Assembly: GCA_011620645.1 (NCBI GenBank) | Contig: WOYS01000057.1 | Location: 4,388 to 60,504, forward strand | Direction: 5' to 3' | DNA length: 56,117 nt | Source of the DNA: Mycobacterium sp. | GTDB taxonomy: Bacteria > Actinomycetota > Actinomycetes > Mycobacteriales > Mycobacteriaceae | Shown here: positions 998 to 16,932 of the stretch, in pieces | How the letters are laid out: each line of letters begins with the position of its first letter | Numbering within the stretch: position 1 is the stretch's first letter | Notes under the pieces: model-generated | The model's database searches: none | What the model was told of the DNA's origin: nothing | What the model saw: only the letters and a program-made list of their open reading frames with translations | Translations under genes and position numbers: made by a program

Positions 998-1363
998 GCC
1001 CGGGTGTCGTCGGCTGATCAGAAAGCGGATCGGGATCGTCAGGTGACGCGGGTGACGGCATGGGCCACGGCCCAGCAGATCCCGGTCGACAAGGTTGTTA
1101 TGGGGGTTGGTTGGTTGTTATGGGGGTTGGTTGCGCGTTGAACGGGCACCGCCGCAAGTTTCTTGCCTTGCTGCGTGATCGATCGGTGCACCGGATCGTG
1201 GTGGAACACCGGGACCGGTTCGGCCGAGGTCGATGACGATCCGGTGCGGGATATGACCGAGATCCTGACTTCGATGTGTGCGCGGCTCTAGGGCAGATGC
1301 GCTGCACAGAACCGGGCCACGCGTGCCCTTGCTGCGGCAGCCGATGACGCCCAGGCGGCCTGA
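998..1363 (+). pseudogene. IS607-type serine recombinase (TnpA) remnant
   Basis: Reading across three breaks gives a recognisable IS607-family TnpA: VSSADQKADRDRQVTRV from about 1004, then ALNGHRRKFLALLRDRSVH, then VRDMTEILTSMCARL, and finally a short Ala-rich tail ending in TGA at 1361-1363. The N-terminal helix-turn-helix part is missing. A 20-bp tandem duplication at 1094-1133 shifts the frame, an internal out-of-frame deletion lies near 1225, and a TAG at 1289-1291 interrupts the last segment. The TGA overlaps the ATG of the adjacent tnpB fragment, as in intact IS607 elements. It cannot make an active recombinase. Confidence 0.8.
1094..1133. repeat. 20-bp exact tandem duplication inside dead tnpA
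   Basis: The 20-base unit GTTGTTATGGGGGTTGGTTG is present twice back to back (1094-1113, 1114-1133). Removing one copy joins the upstream reading frame (QQIPVDKVV) to the downstream one (LNGHRRKFL), so the duplication itself is a frameshifting lesion in the recombinase gene. Confidence 0.92.
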
Positions 1364-1524
1364 TGGCCAGATTCGAGGTGCCAGAGGGCTGGTGTGTGCA
1401 AGCATTCCGGTTCACGCTGGACCCGACCGAGGACCAGGCCCGCGCGTTGGCGCGCCATTTCGGCGCTCGCCGCACGGCGTACAACTGGACCGTCGCCACT
1501 TTGAAAACCGACATCGAGGCGTGG
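1363..1524 (+). pseudogene. TnpB (IS607/IS605 OrfB) N-terminal fragment
   Basis: About 54 residues starting MARFEVPEGWCVQAFRFTLD match the N-terminus of mycobacterial TnpB proteins from IS607-type elements, including the conserved segment DPTEDQARALARHFGARRTAYNW. A full TnpB has roughly 400 or more residues with a RuvC-like nuclease and a zinc finger; neither is present here. The fragment begins at the TGATG overlap with the tnpA remnant. The same reading frame runs on without a stop into an MFS permease fragment and ends at 2001, giving a 212-codon chimeric frame that is unlikely to be functional. Confidence 0.8.
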
Positions 1525-1647
1525 CAGGCCGGCGTCACCGCGCGATTCGCTGCCGCCGCGCCCGACGTAGTAGACACACAGCAGCAGGCGCGGGAGTATC
1601 GCTGCTCCTGCTGCCGTCGCTGCTCTCCCCCGCACGCCGAGCCGGGC

Positions 1648-2001
1648 ACCTGGGTATTCATCATTTTCTACGGACTGGACGGGGTGGCCACCGTCCCACC
1701 GACGATCGTGTCGTGCCGCGATTTCTTCGGATCCAGGTCGCCGATCGTATTCGGTGGGATTTTTGGGTCACACCAGCTCGGAGCAGCAGTCGCGGCTGCG
1801 GGCGCGGGCTGGATCCGGGACCTGCAAGGTGACTGTGACCTGGCGTTTTACCTCGCGGCGGGGCTGTGTTTCGTGGCCGTGGCACTGTGCGCCGGGGTGC
1901 GCAGGCCGGCAACTCCGGAGGCCGCCCGGTCCCGTAGCATTTGGCGCGACCCGCCGTGGCGCATACGATTCATCCGGCGCCGCGGGGACGCCGAGGCTTG
2001 A
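1648..2001 (+). pseudogene. C-terminal fragment of an MFS permease
   Basis: From about 1648 the frame reads FIIFYGLDGVATVPPTIVSC, then SPIVFGGIFGSHQLGAAVAA and a hydrophobic helix (FYLAAGLCFVAVALCAGV). This is the typical last two or three helices of a major facilitator transporter, where a conserved GxxFASHQxGAA motif is common. The N-terminal nine or ten helices are absent, their place being taken by the TnpB fragment. I infer that insertion or excision of the IS607 element deleted the start of the permease gene. The substrate is unknown. The tail after residue 181 of the chimeric frame is basic and low in hydrophobicity. Confidence 0.7.
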
Positions 2002-10882: not shown

Positions 10883-10925
10883 GGGACCTCACGTAGTAGG
10901 GACCTCACGTAGTAGGGACCTTACG
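10883..10925. repeat. 16-bp tandem repeat, 2.6 copies, at the mce deletion edge
   Basis: GGGACCTCACGTAGTA occurs exactly at 10883-10898 and 10899-10914, followed by a partial copy GGGACCTTACG that runs into the tetR stop codon. The repeat marks the junction where the mce gene is cut off, and the partial third copy overlaps the 3' end of the next gene, suggesting that the unit was copied from the tetR terminus. Confidence 0.85.
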
Positions 10926-11541
10926 CTTTGCCGACGACGCCGAGCGCACGCACCGCGAACCCCTCCACGCGGGCCCTGGACAGCCGGATCTGAGCCGGAT
11001 CGAAGATCCTCGCCGAGGTGAGTTCGCGGCTCACCAGGGCCGCGATCGCAATGGCATCCGATTCTGGTTGGGCCAACGGGAAAGCTCCCGCTGCCTGTCC
11101 GGCTCGCAGAATGGTTGCCAGCGACGTTTCCCGGCGCGTGCGGGACAGCTCCCGTGCCTCCCGGTAACCCTTGGCCGACCGCATCTCGTCGCAGTCGAGC
11201 ACGGCGAGGTAACGGTGCAGGTCGGTATCGCTGGCCAGGGTGAACATCTTCTCCAGCCACGCGCGCAGCTGCTCGAGCGGGTCCGGCGAGCCGGCGACGG
11301 CGATCTCGTCGAGCGCCCCAGCGATTCGCTCGGTCACCTGGTCCAGCATCGCCAGGAAGAGGTCGCCCTTGGACTGGAAATGTCGGTAGAAGGCACGACC
11401 GGAGACTTCGGCGTGCGCCAGGATGGCAGATACGGGCAACGGGGTCTCGTGCGGTTCGGCCAGGCACTGGAAGGTAGCCTCGACAATGCGGTCCCGCTCT
11501 TCGGCGCTGAAGTCCGTCGTTGGCACTGGTTGCACGGCCAC
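10921..11541 (-). CDS. TetR-family transcriptional regulator
   Basis: A 206-residue regulator with an N-terminal helix-turn-helix (RIVEATFQCLAE, then AILAHAEVSGRAFYRHFQSK, about 15-60) and a helical C-terminal domain whose sequence is not diagnostic of a ligand. GTG 11541 (VAVQPVPTTDF) is the likeliest start; GTG 11535 is also possible. It is divergent from the alpha/beta hydrolase at 11632 across about 90 bp, the usual arrangement for a local repressor. The stop TAA at 10921-10923 lies in a tandem repeat shared with the mce deletion scar. Confidence 0.85.
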   Translation of the reverse strand: MAVQPVPTTDFSAEERDRIVEATFQCLAEPHETPLPVSAILAHAEVSGRAFYRHFQSKGDLFLAMLDQVTERIAGALDEIAVAGSPDPLEQLRAWLEKMFTLASDTDLHRYLAVLDCDEMRSAKGYREARELSRTRRETSLATILRAGQAAGAFPLAQPESDAIAIAALVSRELTSARIFDPAQIRLSRARVEGFAVRALGVVGKA

Positions 11542-11631
11542 CAAGTCTAGAGATATCCGCGGTAGCGGGCCGTCACCAACCCTGGACGGCAGATCAGTAA
11601 AGTGATCCGCGAGACCGGCGAGAGGATGCCT

Positions 11632-12495
11632 GTGAGTATGGCCAAGAGCGCACCGCAGACCGTAACGTTCCGCGGCGTCGACGACCTCGCACTGGTCGGC
11701 GACGAGTGGAATCGGGATACCACGACCGAGGCGTCGGGGCCGACCGTCCTGATGTTGCACGGCGGCGGTCAGAACCGGCACTCCTGGAAGAACACCGGCC
11801 AGATCCTCGCCGACCACGGTCTGCATGTCATCGCGCTGGACAGCCGCGGGCACGGTGACAGCGACCGCTCTCCGACCGCCAGCTACGACGTGGAGACGCT
11901 GAGCTCCGACATCCTGCAGGTGCTCTACCAGATCGGTAGGCCCGTTGTACTGGTCGGCGCCAGCATGGGCGGACTGACCGGCATCCAGGCCGCGTACGAG
12001 GCCGGCCCGGAACTGGTGACCAAGCTGATCCTCGTCGACGTGGTGCCACGGTTCGAGAAGGACGGCAGTGCCCGCATCCGCGACTTCATGTTCAACCACG
12101 TCCACGGTTTCGATTCGCTGGAGCAGGCCGCGGACGCGATCGCGGCGTATCTGCCGCACCGGCCCAAGCCCCGCAGCACCGAGGGCCTGAAGAAGAACCT
12201 CCGGCTGCGCGACGGCCGCTGGTACTGGCATTGGGATCCGGCGTTCCTCACCAAACCGGGCGACGACCCCCTCGTCCGCGCGGACAAGCTTGAGGCCGCC
12301 GCGATGAATCTGACGGTGCCGATCCTGTTGATCCGCGGCAAGTTGTCCGATGTGGTTTCCGAGCAGGGGGTGCGCGACTTCCTGGAGAAGGTGCCCCATG
12401 CCGAGTTCGTCGAGTTGTCCGAGGCAGGCCATACCGCCGCCGGCGATGACAACGACGCGTTCACCGATCTCGTCGTCGGGTTCATCGGCAAGTAA
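11632..12495 (+). CDS. Alpha/beta hydrolase (Ser-nucleophile)
   Basis: A 287-residue alpha/beta-hydrolase: HGGG oxyanion loop at about 43-46, DSRGHGDSD after strand 4, nucleophile S111 in VGASMGG, the distal Asp in GKLSDVV and the His in EAGHTAAGDD. A Ser nucleophile points to esterase, lipase or peroxidase-like C-C hydrolase chemistry, unlike the Asp-type hydrolase at 8352. GTG 11632 has GAGAGG six bases upstream; ATG 11638 (MAKSAPQTVTF) is the alternative. It is divergent from a TetR regulator that probably controls it. The 3' neighbour starts 9 bp on and could be cotranscribed. Confidence 0.85.
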   Translation: MSMAKSAPQTVTFRGVDDLALVGDEWNRDTTTEASGPTVLMLHGGGQNRHSWKNTGQILADHGLHVIALDSRGHGDSDRSPTASYDVETLSSDILQVLYQIGRPVVLVGASMGGLTGIQAAYEAGPELVTKLILVDVVPRFEKDGSARIRDFMFNHVHGFDSLEQAADAIAAYLPHRPKPRSTEGLKKNLRLRDGRWYWHWDPAFLTKPGDDPLVRADKLEAAAMNLTVPILLIRGKLSDVVSEQGVRDFLEKVPHAEFVELSEAGHTAAGDDNDAFTDLVVGFIGK

Positions 12496-12503
12496 CCGAC
12501 GGC

Positions 12504-15398
12504 ATGGCCGGCCATACCTCTGGTTGCTCGGGATTTAACTTCCTGGACCAACCAGCCCTACCGGCACCACAGGTCAGCGAACAGCAGGCCGCCGAGTTGC
12601 TGGCGTCCAGGTACGGATCCCGCGGCACGGTGAAATCCCTTGGTAGTCAGCAGGACTGCAACTTTCTGGTGTTCGAGGACGGCGCACCGGCAGCGGTGCT
12701 GAAGATCGCCAACCCGGCTTTCACCGACACCGAACTATCGGCCCAGGACGCCGCGGCAGAGCTGATCGCGCGCGCCGAACCCGAGTTGCGGGTCGCGACC
12801 CCGTTGCCCACCAGCGGCGGCGAGCCACCCGGCGCCCCTGCATGTCCCGTCGCTTCGCTCGCCCACGTCCGACTTCTGCCCTATCTGGCCGGCGGAACCC
12901 TCACCGAGCGCGGCTATCTGTCTCCGGCTGTCGTCGCGGCGATGGGCGATCTCGCCGGCCGGGTGAGCCTGGCGCTGTCCGGGTTCAGCCACCCCGGGCT
13001 CGATCGGATCCTGCAGTGGGATCTGCGGTACGGCAACGACGTGGTCACCGAACTCATCTCGCACGTGCCGCGCCGGGGCGAGGAGATCCAGGCCGCTGCC
13101 CTGCAGGCATGGTCGAGGATCGCACCGCTGGCCGACGAACTGCCGCGCCAGGCGGTGCATTTGGATCTGACCGACGCCAATTTGGTCGCCGGGGCCTCGG
13201 TTCTGCCCGACGGCATCATCGACTTCGGTGACCTGTCGGACACCTGGGCGGTGTCCGAGCTGGCGATCACGCTGTCCTCGGTGCTCGGCCACCCCGGTAG
13301 CGACCCGACGTCGATCCTGCCCGGCATCAAGGCATTCCACGCGATGCGCCCGTTGCACCCGGCCGAGGCGAAGGTGCTGTGGCCGCTGCTGGTGTTGCGC
13401 GCCGCGGTGCTGATCGTCAGCGGCGCCCAGCAGGCCGAGCTGGACCCCGACAACGCCTACGTCACCGAGCATTCCGATGATGAATGGCGGATGTTCGCCC
13501 AGGCCACCTCCGTACCGATGGACGTCATGACCGCGTTGATCGTGACCGAACTCGGCTTGGCACCGGCCGCCCCCGAGGTGCAGATCGAGGGCCGTCTGAT
13601 CTCCGGTCTGGATCCCGAAACTGTGGTGACGCTGGATCTTTCGGATACCTTTACTTTGGATGGGGAAGACGCACTGGCCGCGGCGGCGGTGCGCGATGGC
13701 GCCGCGCTGGTGATCACCCGGTTCGGCCGTCCGCGGCTGAGCCTGGCGCCCCTGCTGTCGGCGAACAGCCCGGCCGTCGTCGAGACCGGAATCGGCCTGT
13801 GGTCGGCGTCGACGACCAGGGTGCTGGCGCCGTGGGACGGCGAGGTGGTGCAGCGTTCCGATGATCGGATCACGTTGCGCGGTCTGGATTTCGAACTGAC
13901 CTTGACCGGCGTCGAGTCCAGCACGGCCCCGGGCCATGTGCAGGCCGGTGAGCATCTCGGGGTGATCGGGCAAGGCCGGTGGACCCAGTTGGCGGTGCGA
14001 CCGACCGGCGCACCGGTGGCGCCGCAGTTCACCACCGCCGAGCTGGCACCGGGCTGGCTGGCGCTGTGCCGGGATCCCCGAGCCGTTCTCGGGCTCGACG
14101 AACTCACCGACGAGCCACAGCGCGACCTGCTGGAGCGCCGCGATGACAGCTTCGCCAAGGTGCAGGAGCGGTATTACCGCGATCCGCCGCAGATCGAACG
14201 CGGCCATCGCCACTACCTGATGTCGACCGCGGGCCGGGTGTATCTGGACATGGTCAACAACGTCACCGTGCTCGGCCACGCTCACCCACGGGTGGCCGAC
14301 GCGGCATCGGCACAGTTGCGCAGGCTGAATACCAACTCGCGGTTCAATTACTCGGCGGTTGTCGAGTTCAGCGAGCGAATCGCCGCCACCCTGCCCGCCG
14401 AGCTGGACACCGTGTTCCTGGTCAATTCCGGTTCCGAGGCAAGCGATCTCGCGATCCGGCTGGCCACCGCGGCAACCGGATGCCGCGATGTGATCGCCGT
14501 GCGTGAGGCTTACCACGGCTGGACGTATGCCACCGATGCGGTGTCCACGTCGACGGCCGACAACCCGAACGCGCTGGCCACCCGCCCGGACTGGGTGCAC
14601 ACCGTCGAATCGCCGAACAGCTTCCGGGGCAAGTACCGCGGCGCCGAGGCGCACCGGTATGCCACCGAGGCCGTGACCCAGATCGAGGAACTGTCGGCCA
14701 AGGGGTGTCCGCCCGCCGCGTTCATCTGTGAGCCCGTGTACGGCAATGCCGGCGGGATGGCCCTGCCCGACGGGTATCTGCAGCAGGTGTACGCCGCGGT
14801 CCGTGCGGCCGGCGGACTGGCCATCGCCGATGAGGTGCAGGTCGGGTACGGTCGGCTGGGTCAGTGGTTCTGGGGTTTCCCGCAGCAGCAGGTAGTGCCC
14901 GATATCGTGTCGGTCGCCAAGGCCACCGGAAACGGTTACCCGCTGGGCGCGGTCATCACCACCCGCGCGATCGCCGACGCGTTCCGGTCACAGGGCTACT
15001 TCTTCTCCTCCACCGGCGGTAGTCCGCTGTCCTGCGTGATCGGCCTGACCGTGCTCGATGTGCTGCGCGACGAGGGCCTGCAGGACAACGCGCTGCGGGT
15101 CGGCGAGTACCTCAAGACCCGACTGCTGGCCCTGCGCGACAAACATCCGATCGTGGGCACCGTGCACGGTATGGGCCTGTATCTGGGCGTGGAATTGATC
15201 CGCGATGCCACCACGCTGGAGCCGGCCACCGAGGAGACTATCGCGATCTGCGAGCGCATGCTGGAACTCGGGGTGATCATCCAGCCGACCGGTGATCACC
15301 AGAACATCCTGAAGACCAAGCCGCCGTTGTGCATTGACATCGCCGGCGCGGATTTCTACGTCGACACCCTCGACCGGGTGCTCAGCGAGGGTTTCTAA
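12504..15398 (+). CDS. Trifunctional-looking fusion: APH-type kinase, beta-barrel, class III PLP enzyme
   Basis: A 964-residue three-part protein. Residues about 20-345 form an aminoglycoside-phosphotransferase/choline-kinase fold: ATP-binding Lys in AVLKIAN, catalytic HLDLTDAN (H219, D221, N226) and metal-binding IDFGD (D240). Residues about 365-540 are a beta-rich region with VLAPWDGEVV and HLGVIGQG, resembling an M23/lysostaphin barrel but without its zinc ligands. Residues about 545-964 are a class III aminotransferase-fold enzyme (VNSGSEASDLAIRLA, IADEVQVGYGRLG, PLP lysine K806 in VAKATGNGYP). The PLP part resembles the human ethanolamine-phosphate and 5-phosphohydroxylysine phospho-lyases, and the kinase part hydroxylysine kinase, so a kinase feeding a phospho-lyase is my inference. 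Similar long fusions occur in proteobacteria. ATG 12504 lacks a clear ribosome site. Confidence 0.85.
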   Translation: MAGHTSGCSGFNFLDQPALPAPQVSEQQAAELLASRYGSRGTVKSLGSQQDCNFLVFEDGAPAAVLKIANPAFTDTELSAQDAAAELIARAEPELRVATPLPTSGGEPPGAPACPVASLAHVRLLPYLAGGTLTERGYLSPAVVAAMGDLAGRVSLALSGFSHPGLDRILQWDLRYGNDVVTELISHVPRRGEEIQAAALQAWSRIAPLADELPRQAVHLDLTDANLVAGASVLPDGIIDFGDLSDTWAVSELAITLSSVLGHPGSDPTSILPGIKAFHAMRPLHPAEAKVLWPLLVLRAAVLIVSGAQQAELDPDNAYVTEHSDDEWRMFAQATSVPMDVMTALIVTELGLAPAAPEVQIEGRLISGLDPETVVTLDLSDTFTLDGEDALAAAAVRDGAALVITRFGRPRLSLAPLLSANSPAVVETGIGLWSASTTRVLAPWDGEVVQRSDDRITLRGLDFELTLTGVESSTAPGHVQAGEHLGVIGQGRWTQLAVRPTGAPVAPQFTTAELAPGWLALCRDPRAVLGLDELTDEPQRDLLERRDDSFAKVQERYYRDPPQIERGHRHYLMSTAGRVYLDMVNNVTVLGHAHPRVADAASAQLRRLNTNSRFNYSAVVEFSERIAATLPAELDTVFLVNSGSEASDLAIRLATAATGCRDVIAVREAYHGWTYATDAVSTSTADNPNALATRPDWVHTVESPNSFRGKYRGAEAHRYATEAVTQIEELSAKGCPPAAFICEPVYGNAGGMALPDGYLQQVYAAVRAAGGLAIADEVQVGYGRLGQWFWGFPQQQVVPDIVSVAKATGNGYPLGAVITTRAIADAFRSQGYFFSSTGGSPLSCVIGLTVLDVLRDEGLQDNALRVGEYLKTRLLALRDKHPIVGTVHGMGLYLGVELIRDATTLEPATEETIAICERMLELGVIIQPTGDHQNILKTKPPLCIDIAGADFYVDTLDRVLSEGF

Positions 15399-15582: not shown

Positions 15583-16290
15583 GTGAATGCGAACACGGTG
15601 TCCCTGGCGCGGGCGCTGGACGAAACCCGGACCGGCGATATCTGGTTGTTCCGGGGCGGCTCCGGGCCGGACCGCGCAATTCGGGCGCTGACGAACGCGC
15701 CGGTCAACCATGTCGGGATGACGGTGGCGATCGATGATCTGCCTCCGCTGATCTGGCATGCCGAGCTGGGCCAGAAGTTGCTCGACCTGTGGACCGGCAC
15801 CCATCATCGCGGTGTGCAGCTCAACGATGCCCGCGAGGTGGTGGAGCGCTGGGTGCACGAGTACGGCCAGCGGGGCTGGTTGCGGCAGCTCAGCCCGTCC
15901 GTCACGCGCGAGCAGGAGGACAAGATGCTCAAGGTGGTCGCCCGGATGAACGGCACCGCCTTCCCGTCGATGGCGCGGCTGACGGGGCGCTGGTTGCGTG
16001 GGCGGTTGCCGATCGTCAGCGATTTCACCCGCGGGCTGCCGATCATCCACCGCAAGGTCCGCGAATCGGCCGAGCGGGACAAGCAGCGGCGCCGGTCGGC
16101 CGGGCTGGAGACGGCGTACTGCGCGGAGACGGTCGCCATCACCTACGAGGAGATGGGCCTGCTGAGCACCGAGAAGCGGGAGAACTATTTCGATCCGGGC
16201 AAGTTCTGGAGCGGTGACAGCCTGTCGCTGGCGCCCGGCTACTCGCTGACCGATGAGATCGCGGTCCTGGTGGACGGTCAGGCCGAGTAG
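15583..16290 (+). CDS. Permuted NlpC/P60 (YiiX/YebB-like) papain-fold protein
   Basis: A 235-residue protein in which the family's His strand (APVNHVGMTVAI and LIWHAEL, about 40-61) comes before the Cys helix (AYCAETVAITYEEMGLL, about 175-192), the circularly permuted order of YiiX-type NlpC/P60 proteins. No signal peptide is visible, so it is probably cytoplasmic. Members of this superfamily act as amidases, peptidases or acyl transferases on lipid or peptide substrates; the specific reaction is unknown. The start is GTG 15583. It is divergent from the 53-residue membrane protein. Confidence 0.75.
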   Translation: MNANTVSLARALDETRTGDIWLFRGGSGPDRAIRALTNAPVNHVGMTVAIDDLPPLIWHAELGQKLLDLWTGTHHRGVQLNDAREVVERWVHEYGQRGWLRQLSPSVTREQEDKMLKVVARMNGTAFPSMARLTGRWLRGRLPIVSDFTRGLPIIHRKVRESAERDKQRRRSAGLETAYCAETVAITYEEMGLLSTEKRENYFDPGKFWSGDSLSLAPGYSLTDEIAVLVDGQAE

Positions 16291-16327: not shown

Positions 16328-16591
16328 TCATCGATAAACGTCAAGACGATGCGCGATGTGGACAACGCGGACCACAACACGTTCGTCCAAGACCTGATAG
16401 ATCACCCGAAACTCACCCCGCCGAGCCGAGTACCGCCCCTCCAACTGGCCGCGGAGTGGTGTGCCCACTCGTTGAGGATTCTCTGCGAGAGGACCTCGGA
16501 TGAACTCCCAGCATGCGACGGCCACTGCCTGGGGCAGCAGATCGGTGAGCGCCTTCTTCGCAGCTGTCGTCAACTCAATTCGATACGTCAC
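16328..16591 (-). CDS. relE: RelE-family toxin
   Basis: An 87-residue basic protein with the RelE/ParE fold pattern: an N-terminal strand (YRIELTTAAKKAL), a helical middle (ACWEFIRGPLAENPQRVG), and the C-terminal strands PLRGQLEGRYSARRGEFRVIYQV and VVVRVVHIAHR. The Arg residues and the GRYSARRGEFR region are typical of the ribosome-dependent mRNA endonucleases. ATG 16591 overlaps the antitoxin stop (ATGA), so the toxin is translationally coupled to it. The pair lies directly beside ychF, a position that in M. tuberculosis is held by a VapBC pair. Confidence 0.88.
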   Translation of the reverse strand: MTYRIELTTAAKKALTDLLPQAVAVACWEFIRGPLAENPQRVGTPLRGQLEGRYSARRGEFRVIYQVLDERVVVRVVHIAHRLDVYR

Positions 16592-16872
16592 CGCGGGAGT
16601 CGCCCGGCGGCACGCATCTCCTCTGTCACCTGGTCGAGTGTATGGAGCTCGCCGCTTTCCGCCTCAGCCTCGGCTTCTCGAACTTCGCGCATCAGTTCCT
16701 GATCGCCAAGGACCGCCAAAGTCTCCATTATCGAGTCAAAGTCGTCCGCACTGAGAATCACAGCTGCGCAGCGACCCTGCCTTGTGACCTCGATGCGCTC
16801 GTGCGTTCGGACCGCCTCCTCAACCAACTTCGAGAGGTTGGCCCTAACTTCGGAAAGGGGAAGCGTCGGCAC
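16588..16872 (-). CDS. relB: RelB/Phd-type antitoxin
   Basis: A 94-residue protein. The N-terminal half (PLSEVRANLSKLVEEAVRTH, then IEVTRQGRCAAVILSADD) is the Phd/YefM-type DNA-binding fold, and the acidic C-terminal helix (REVREAEAEAESGELHTLDQ) would wrap the toxin. GTG 16872 is chosen because homologues start there and because a TAGTAT -10 box lies seven bases upstream (16885-16880) with no ribosome site, fitting a leaderless mRNA. Longer in-frame starts up to 16929 would enter the spacer before ychF. Such antitoxins repress their own operon. Confidence 0.85.
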   Translation of the reverse strand: MPTLPLSEVRANLSKLVEEAVRTHERIEVTRQGRCAAVILSADDFDSIMETLAVLGDQELMREVREAEAEAESGELHTLDQVTEEMRAAGRLPR

Positions 16873-16932
16873 GTACAGAATACTAGCGCGTCTGGGCGGA
16901 GTCCCTGCGTTTCGCTTCGAGCCGCGCATGCT

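Follow-up and report, generated by a model that had tools for sequence, protein, structure and literature searches.

The window analysed here is a stretch of 56,117 nucleotides of contig WOYS01000057.1 from Mycobacterium sp. (assembly GCA_011620645.1), and on its forward strand (12504..15398) it encodes a protein of 964 amino acids in which an N-terminal kinase, a decayed M23 barrel and a C-terminal pyridoxal phosphate (PLP) enzyme of the phospho-lyase type are fused. From sequence comparison, we consider this protein to be probably a bifunctional catabolic enzyme, the kinase and the phospho-lyase of which would act in series on an amino alcohol; we put the probability of this at roughly three in four. 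The initial annotation had proposed the same pair of reactions, and the proposal is supported because the PLP domain ranks nearest to two solved phospho-lyases, carries their signature residues and is often linked to a kinase in other organisms.

The reading frame is intact and the protein belongs to the NCBIfam family NF004800 (PRK06149), which it matches with 1420.4 bits against a cut-off of 973 (residues 10-963, profile positions 3-971 of 972). We found no difference from this family, named "aminotransferase" by NCBI, in full-length domain order or score. The family NF004799 (PRK06148), a fusion of kinase, M23 and PLP domains named "hypothetical protein", has the same three-part order, and here the window protein reaches 649 bits, below the cut-off of 1128. 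Pfam recognised APH at residues 53-266 and Aminotran_3 at 563-960, with no family between the two. The coordinates, residues and domain order initially given for the fusion are all correct, and the layout is already present in databases, so it is not a new architecture. Within the genome itself (3.98 Mb, 128 contigs) the full-length gene occurs once, and the other class III PLP matches there have at most 36 % identity to the fusion. The closest relatives found are from Mycolicibacterium, which makes an environmental mycobacterium the likeliest host. Of the sampled genomes, 107 of 248 from the genus and 6 of 296 from the phylum have a match above the PRK06149 cut-off, as against none of 14 named control genomes; members also occur in Agromyces, Rhizobium and others. 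An antisense open reading frame (ORF) of 639 amino acids (12735-14654) was discarded; we judged it a shadow ORF of the kind that GC-rich coding DNA gives rise to.

By kinship, the PLP domain (residues 545-963; 14136..15392), a class III enzyme, is to be classed as a phospho-lyase. Its best solved relatives by sequence are human ETNPPL (6tor, 351 bits) and Arthrobacter A1RDF1 (5g4i, 262 bits), followed by dialkylglycine decarboxylase with 182 bits; the same two structures also rank first by fold when the predicted structure of the domain is compared. Its kinship to solved phospho-lyases thus exceeds that to solved transaminases. ETNPPL shows 42 % identity over about 404 columns and has equivalents of N585, N586, R613 and K937, and A1RDF1, at 34-35 % identity, has the same signature residues. 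Both differ from the window protein in that the solved chains (446 amino acids in A1RDF1) lack a kinase or barrel, and the cofactor loop of ETNPPL is also unlike.

We aligned 78 full-length fusions, comprising the window protein and 77 of 80 loci (the truncated L040, L057 and L080 were excluded), and the model was built from 45 of these rows. The Schiff-base lysine K806 (14919..14921) and the PLP aspartate D776 are both present, as expected for a phospho-lyase-type enzyme, and together with E645, R784, K937 and K939 they are identical in all 78 proteins. The phospho-lyase-type signature residues were counted in 56 rows, which remained from 61 non-own rows after three other class III genes, the wrongly extracted L082 and one row that duplicated the window protein had been dropped. 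N585-N586 (14256..14261), R613 (14340..14342) and K937 (15312..15314) are each conserved in 56/56 rows and shared with 6tor and 5g4i. None of these four residues is found in the own-genome paralogues that cover the sites: among the six class III paralogues, the four covering 585/586 have asparagine at neither position, and the four covering 937 have arginine (three) or glutamine (one). All three parts of the fusion are under purifying selection in each of nine codon-wise pairwise comparisons, and the ratio of non-synonymous to synonymous substitution rates (dN/dS) is lowest in the PLP domain (0.06-0.16).

The N-terminal part (residues 18-345; 12555..13538) has the features of an APH-fold small-molecule kinase, the family motif of which combines an HxDxxxxN loop, a second aspartate and an N-lobe lysine. 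All three are present and the Pfam APH match lies over its cut-off. The glycine loop LGSQQDCNF (residues 46-54; 12639..12665) is invariant at L46, G47, S48, Q50, D51 and N53 in 78/78 fusions, and the same holds for K67, for H219, D221, T223 and N226 of the catalytic loop HLDLTDAN (residues 219-226; 13158..13181) and for D240 (13221..13223), which we take to be the metal-binding aspartate. The catalytic residues that had been noted as kept in both enzymes (H219, D221, N226, D240 and K806) are therefore not only present but identical throughout the alignment. The dN/dS of this part is 0.14-0.31. Outside the two fusion families, its sole NCBIfam match was homoserine kinase, with 34 bits of the 271 set as cut-off. 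Homoserine kinase is an amino-alcohol kinase, so we count this match as pointing towards an amino-alcohol substrate, though it is far below the cut-off.

Linkage of the two activities is not confined to this type of protein. Among relatives from another phylum and from the phylum of the window we identified four layouts, namely separate genes, direct two-domain kinase-PLP fusions (L132-L135, 770-904 amino acids), PRK06148 with M23, and PRK06149. For 21 separate phospho-lyase genes, the surrounding DNA (1.5 kb per side) was searched for kinases. Using a model based on the fusions only, a kinase neighbour was recovered for 12 of them, three being weak (18-24 bits), and a widened model, which included 11 of these kinases, recovered 18/21; Pfam APH confirmed two divergent neighbour kinases. 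The covalent link is dispensable in these relatives, in which the two enzymes come from separate neighbouring genes. Passage of the intermediate without release, as also suggested in the initial annotation, is conjecture, and the predicted structure is that of a monomer. The PLP tree, for which midpoint rooting alone was used, contains one supported split (98/94), which sets direct fusions and separate genes apart from the PRK06148-type and PRK06149 fusions, while PRK06149 forms a single clade in both the PLP and the kinase tree (100/100 in each). This topology is compatible with more than one fusion event, or with fission. Two further arrangements were seen in the course of this survey. A 703-aa open frame (G073:C10:256228-258273) matches PRK06148 only from position 331 and is probably M23 plus PLP without a kinase. 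The M23-containing fusion of L136 (1495-4200, reverse strand) has a shorter kinase part matched in two pieces, and the PRK06149 member L129 comes from the same genome, G516.

In the proposed mechanism, the kinase would transfer a phosphate from ATP to the hydroxyl group of a small amino alcohol, R-CH(OH)-CH2-NH2. Judging from relatives, the phosphorylated amine would then take the place of K806 and be bound by the PLP domain as an aldimine; a proton would be removed, phosphate eliminated, and ammonia and an aldehyde released with no need for an amino acceptor. Animal HYKK and PHYKPL reportedly carry out the proposed type of serial reactions, but as separate proteins, and we liken them to the fusion by reaction only.

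Several observations weigh against a kinase and phospho-lyase acting in series. No kinase was found within 1.5 kb of 3/21 separate phospho-lyase genes, and the kinase neighbour of L116 is a cut ORF on the opposite strand. A sequence comparison of the kinase part alone with solved structures gave no match up to E 1. The residue census covered 56 rows picked as family matches, and the proven phospho-lyases among the proteins compared are 6tor and 5g4i only. The cofactor loop reads FFSSTGGSP in the PRK06149 clade versus mostly YFNTFGGNP in the others, and the clade sits on a long branch (0.78), so that chemistry or substrate may differ from those of ETNPPL. Three loops of the PLP domain (610-612, 675-682 and 783-788) have a predicted local distance difference test score (pLDDT) below 50 in the predicted structure. 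Finally, there is the NCBI name of the family.

Regarding the substrate, the situation is less clear, and two specific proposals, both in our view unlikely, have to be weighed for the lineage of the window. The first is that the fusion acts on hydroxylysine-type or hydroxylated polyamine-type compounds (e.g. 2-hydroxyputrescine) here too. We counted neighbours over 80 fusion loci using 8 kb of surrounding DNA. An agmatine-deiminase-family gene lies within this distance in 13/80 loci from four genera (Arthrobacter, Agreia, Agromyces and some mycobacteria); the loci share ancestry and are therefore not 13 independent cases, and their arrangement varies between genera. A PRK06565-related amidase gene was likewise present in 13/80 loci, and the three scanned were all above the PRK06565 cut-off. 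In Pseudomonadota, downstream of the fusion of Pararhizobium (L161, 342-12127) and on the same strand come genes for an amidohydrolase, an ATP-binding cassette (ABC) transporter, a histone-deacetylase-family protein, an annotated N-carbamoylputrescine amidase (AguB-like) and a serine hydrolase. A relative of this amidase, with 55 % identity, is encoded just downstream of a second fusion of that phylum (L111), and two deacetylase-family genes lie upstream of a separate kinase/phospho-lyase pair (L146). Across the 248 genus genomes, the fusion and the agmatine-deiminase-type family PF04371 occur together in 32, the fusion only in 75, PF04371 only in 17 and neither in 124, which is above expectation (odds 3.1, Fisher p 6e-4, uncorrected for ancestry).

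However, none of the 13 agmatine-deiminase-family loci belongs to the clade of the window (L009-L046), and its own genome has neither a PF04371 match at E <= 1e-40 nor a PRK06565 match over the cut-off. Moreover, the only deiminase-like protein scanned reached 255 bits, below the 382 required for NCBI agmatine deiminase. No agmatine- or polyamine-type genes were found within the stretches examined in other annotated contexts of relatives, and no neighbourhood is common to all lineages: in our own assignment, the fusion alone occurs in all 20 groups, and the next neighbour family in five. Among the neighbours of other family members, the commonest families matched 3 of the 86 ORFs scanned (out of 159, from 18/20 regions). 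As for hydroxylysine, a 2026 paper (PMC12930750) describes its degradation in Pseudomonas via lysine-pathway enzymes, which argues against assuming the kinase route in bacteria generally. On pSymB of Sinorhizobium meliloti (L158, 7965-15147) we also observed a PRK06149-type and a PRK06148-type fusion gene one gene apart, flanked by hutC/hutF on one side, with the PRK06149-type gene beside hutC, and by an Lrp/AsnC regulator on the other.

The agmatine/polyamine-type neighbours in two phyla suggest hydroxylated polyamine-like substrates in those relatives, and for some of them we regard the idea as plausible, the window's own lineage being without that context. A bolder version, which we offer as speculation and think slightly less improbable than either of the specific substrates proposed for the lineage of the window, would see the PRK06149 fusions not as ethanolamine enzymes but as the centre of a hitherto undescribed pathway by which bacteria process compounds of the hydroxylated polyamine or agmatine type. 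An amidase or hydrolase would free the amine, the deiminase and carbamoylase would trim it, and the fusion would phosphorylate it and eliminate phosphate and ammonia to give an aminoaldehyde, with the decayed peptidase domain joining both catalytic parts.

The second proposal, no better placed than the first, is a specific ethanolamine-degrading enzyme composed of ethanolamine kinase and ethanolamine-phosphate phospho-lyase. The closest solved relative is indeed the human ethanolamine-phosphate phospho-lyase, and no EutB match at E <= 1e-50 was found in the genome of the window. However, the cofactor loop is unlike that of ETNPPL, and the candidate link via EutB was rejected, as the two genes are independent across the 248 genus genomes (46 with both, 61 with the fusion alone, 49 with EutB alone and 92 without either; Fisher p 0.19).

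We think it quite improbable that the protein is a true class III transaminase, the kinase-like domain of which would have a regulatory role or produce some other metabolite. The family name says so, and the fold is common to many transaminases, but the nearest solved proteins are the two phospho-lyases, the N-N...R...K set is present, the 937 site lacks the arginine seen in three own-genome paralogues, and a kinase is frequently linked in other layouts. That the kinase modifies aminoglycosides and the PLP enzyme is an unrelated partner is scarcely credible: the Pfam family is APH, and APH(3') models do match the kinase of the relative L112, with scores far short of the cut-offs, but the window kinase matches no NCBIfam aminoglycoside model at E <= 0.001 and the linkage is to phospho-lyases.

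The middle of the fusion (residues 366-530; 13599..14093) is a decayed M23 peptidase domain under purifying selection, and we do not class it as a peptidase. It had been described as M23-like without zinc ligands, and indeed the M23/LytM fold was found and the ligands are lost. M23 peptidases bind zinc through the motifs HxGxD and HxH, in place of which the window protein has ETGIG and WTQ, and there is no histidine in the first-ligand column in 78/78 fusions. The profile of the barrel gave one weak match only among solved structures, to PrgK (E 0.016). This part is variable, with a mean conservation of 0.50 over residues 346-520 in the 78-row alignment, and its dN/dS of 0.12-0.35 shows purifying selection, so the barrel is no freely drifting linker. 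The former peptidase module would now probably serve as a spacer or interaction surface. The ligand set is retained in the middle domain of PRK06148, in contrast to the window protein. LytM domains that have no functional zinc site, for example that of EnvC, are found in cell-envelope proteins, whereas this one lies in the middle of a metabolic enzyme.

Directly upstream of the fusion, with a gap of 8 bases, lies an alpha/beta hydrolase gene (11602..12495, forward strand). It occupies this place in 38/80 loci, which are L009-L046 (L013 partial), the closest group, and the two genes probably form one operon. Among solved structures, the hydrolase matched general alpha/beta hydrolases only (best "possible hydrolase", 88.6 bits), which gives no clue to the substrate. 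As a guess, it may hydrolyse an ester or amide to release the amino alcohol, under the presumable control of the divergent TetR-family regulator (TetR_N; 10921..11547, reverse strand, start approximate), the gene of which is found in 22/80 loci (tblastn E <= 1e-20). The downstream gene (15583..16290, forward strand) encodes 235 amino acids with no Pfam or NCBIfam family and no solved relative up to E 0.1. It was found in 31/80 loci, in Mycolicibacterium, at varying distances, and its link to the fusion is doubtful. PADLOC gave no match at E <= 1e-5. Elsewhere in the window (16328-16929, reverse strand), a YefM-type antitoxin gene (Pfam PhdYeFM_antitox) overlaps an 87-aa ORF that resembles a RelE/YoeB toxin by eye, probably an ordinary toxin-antitoxin pair. 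Another ORF (1363-2001, forward strand) starts with a match to the helix-turn-helix of IS605 OrfB and continues with a sub-threshold match to the major facilitator superfamily; it is perhaps the junction of an insertion-sequence remnant with another gene, or a frame artefact.

Fusions of this kind have a history. Veiga-da-Cunha and colleagues, in the Journal of Biological Chemistry in 2012, reportedly began from bacterial bi- or trifunctional proteins in which a kinase of the APH family is fused to AGXT2L-like enzymes; these fusions are said to have led them to the animal hydroxylysine kinase and two phospho-lyases. We found no assay of a bacterial fusion in the titles and abstracts among the matches listed, most subscription journals lying outside the search; this agrees with the earlier statement that such fusions are annotated elsewhere without a proven reaction. 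In a 2025 review (PMC12138971), gene fusions are said to be able to disclose functions even when both partners are uncharacterised. Veiga-da-Cunha et al. 2012 stands between fusion papers in its reference list, from which we infer that it is cited at that sentence. In two other papers (PMC5200902 and PMC13406643), the animal pathway is only used or cited in the parts available.

The name "aminotransferase" given to PRK06149 probably misstates the reaction, as the sequence indicates a kinase combined with a phospho-lyase. Renaming the family would give many bacteria an additional catabolic step, for which the neighbourhoods of some relatives offer testable substrates. The M23 series, in turn, is a clear example of a peptidase domain becoming a structural part.

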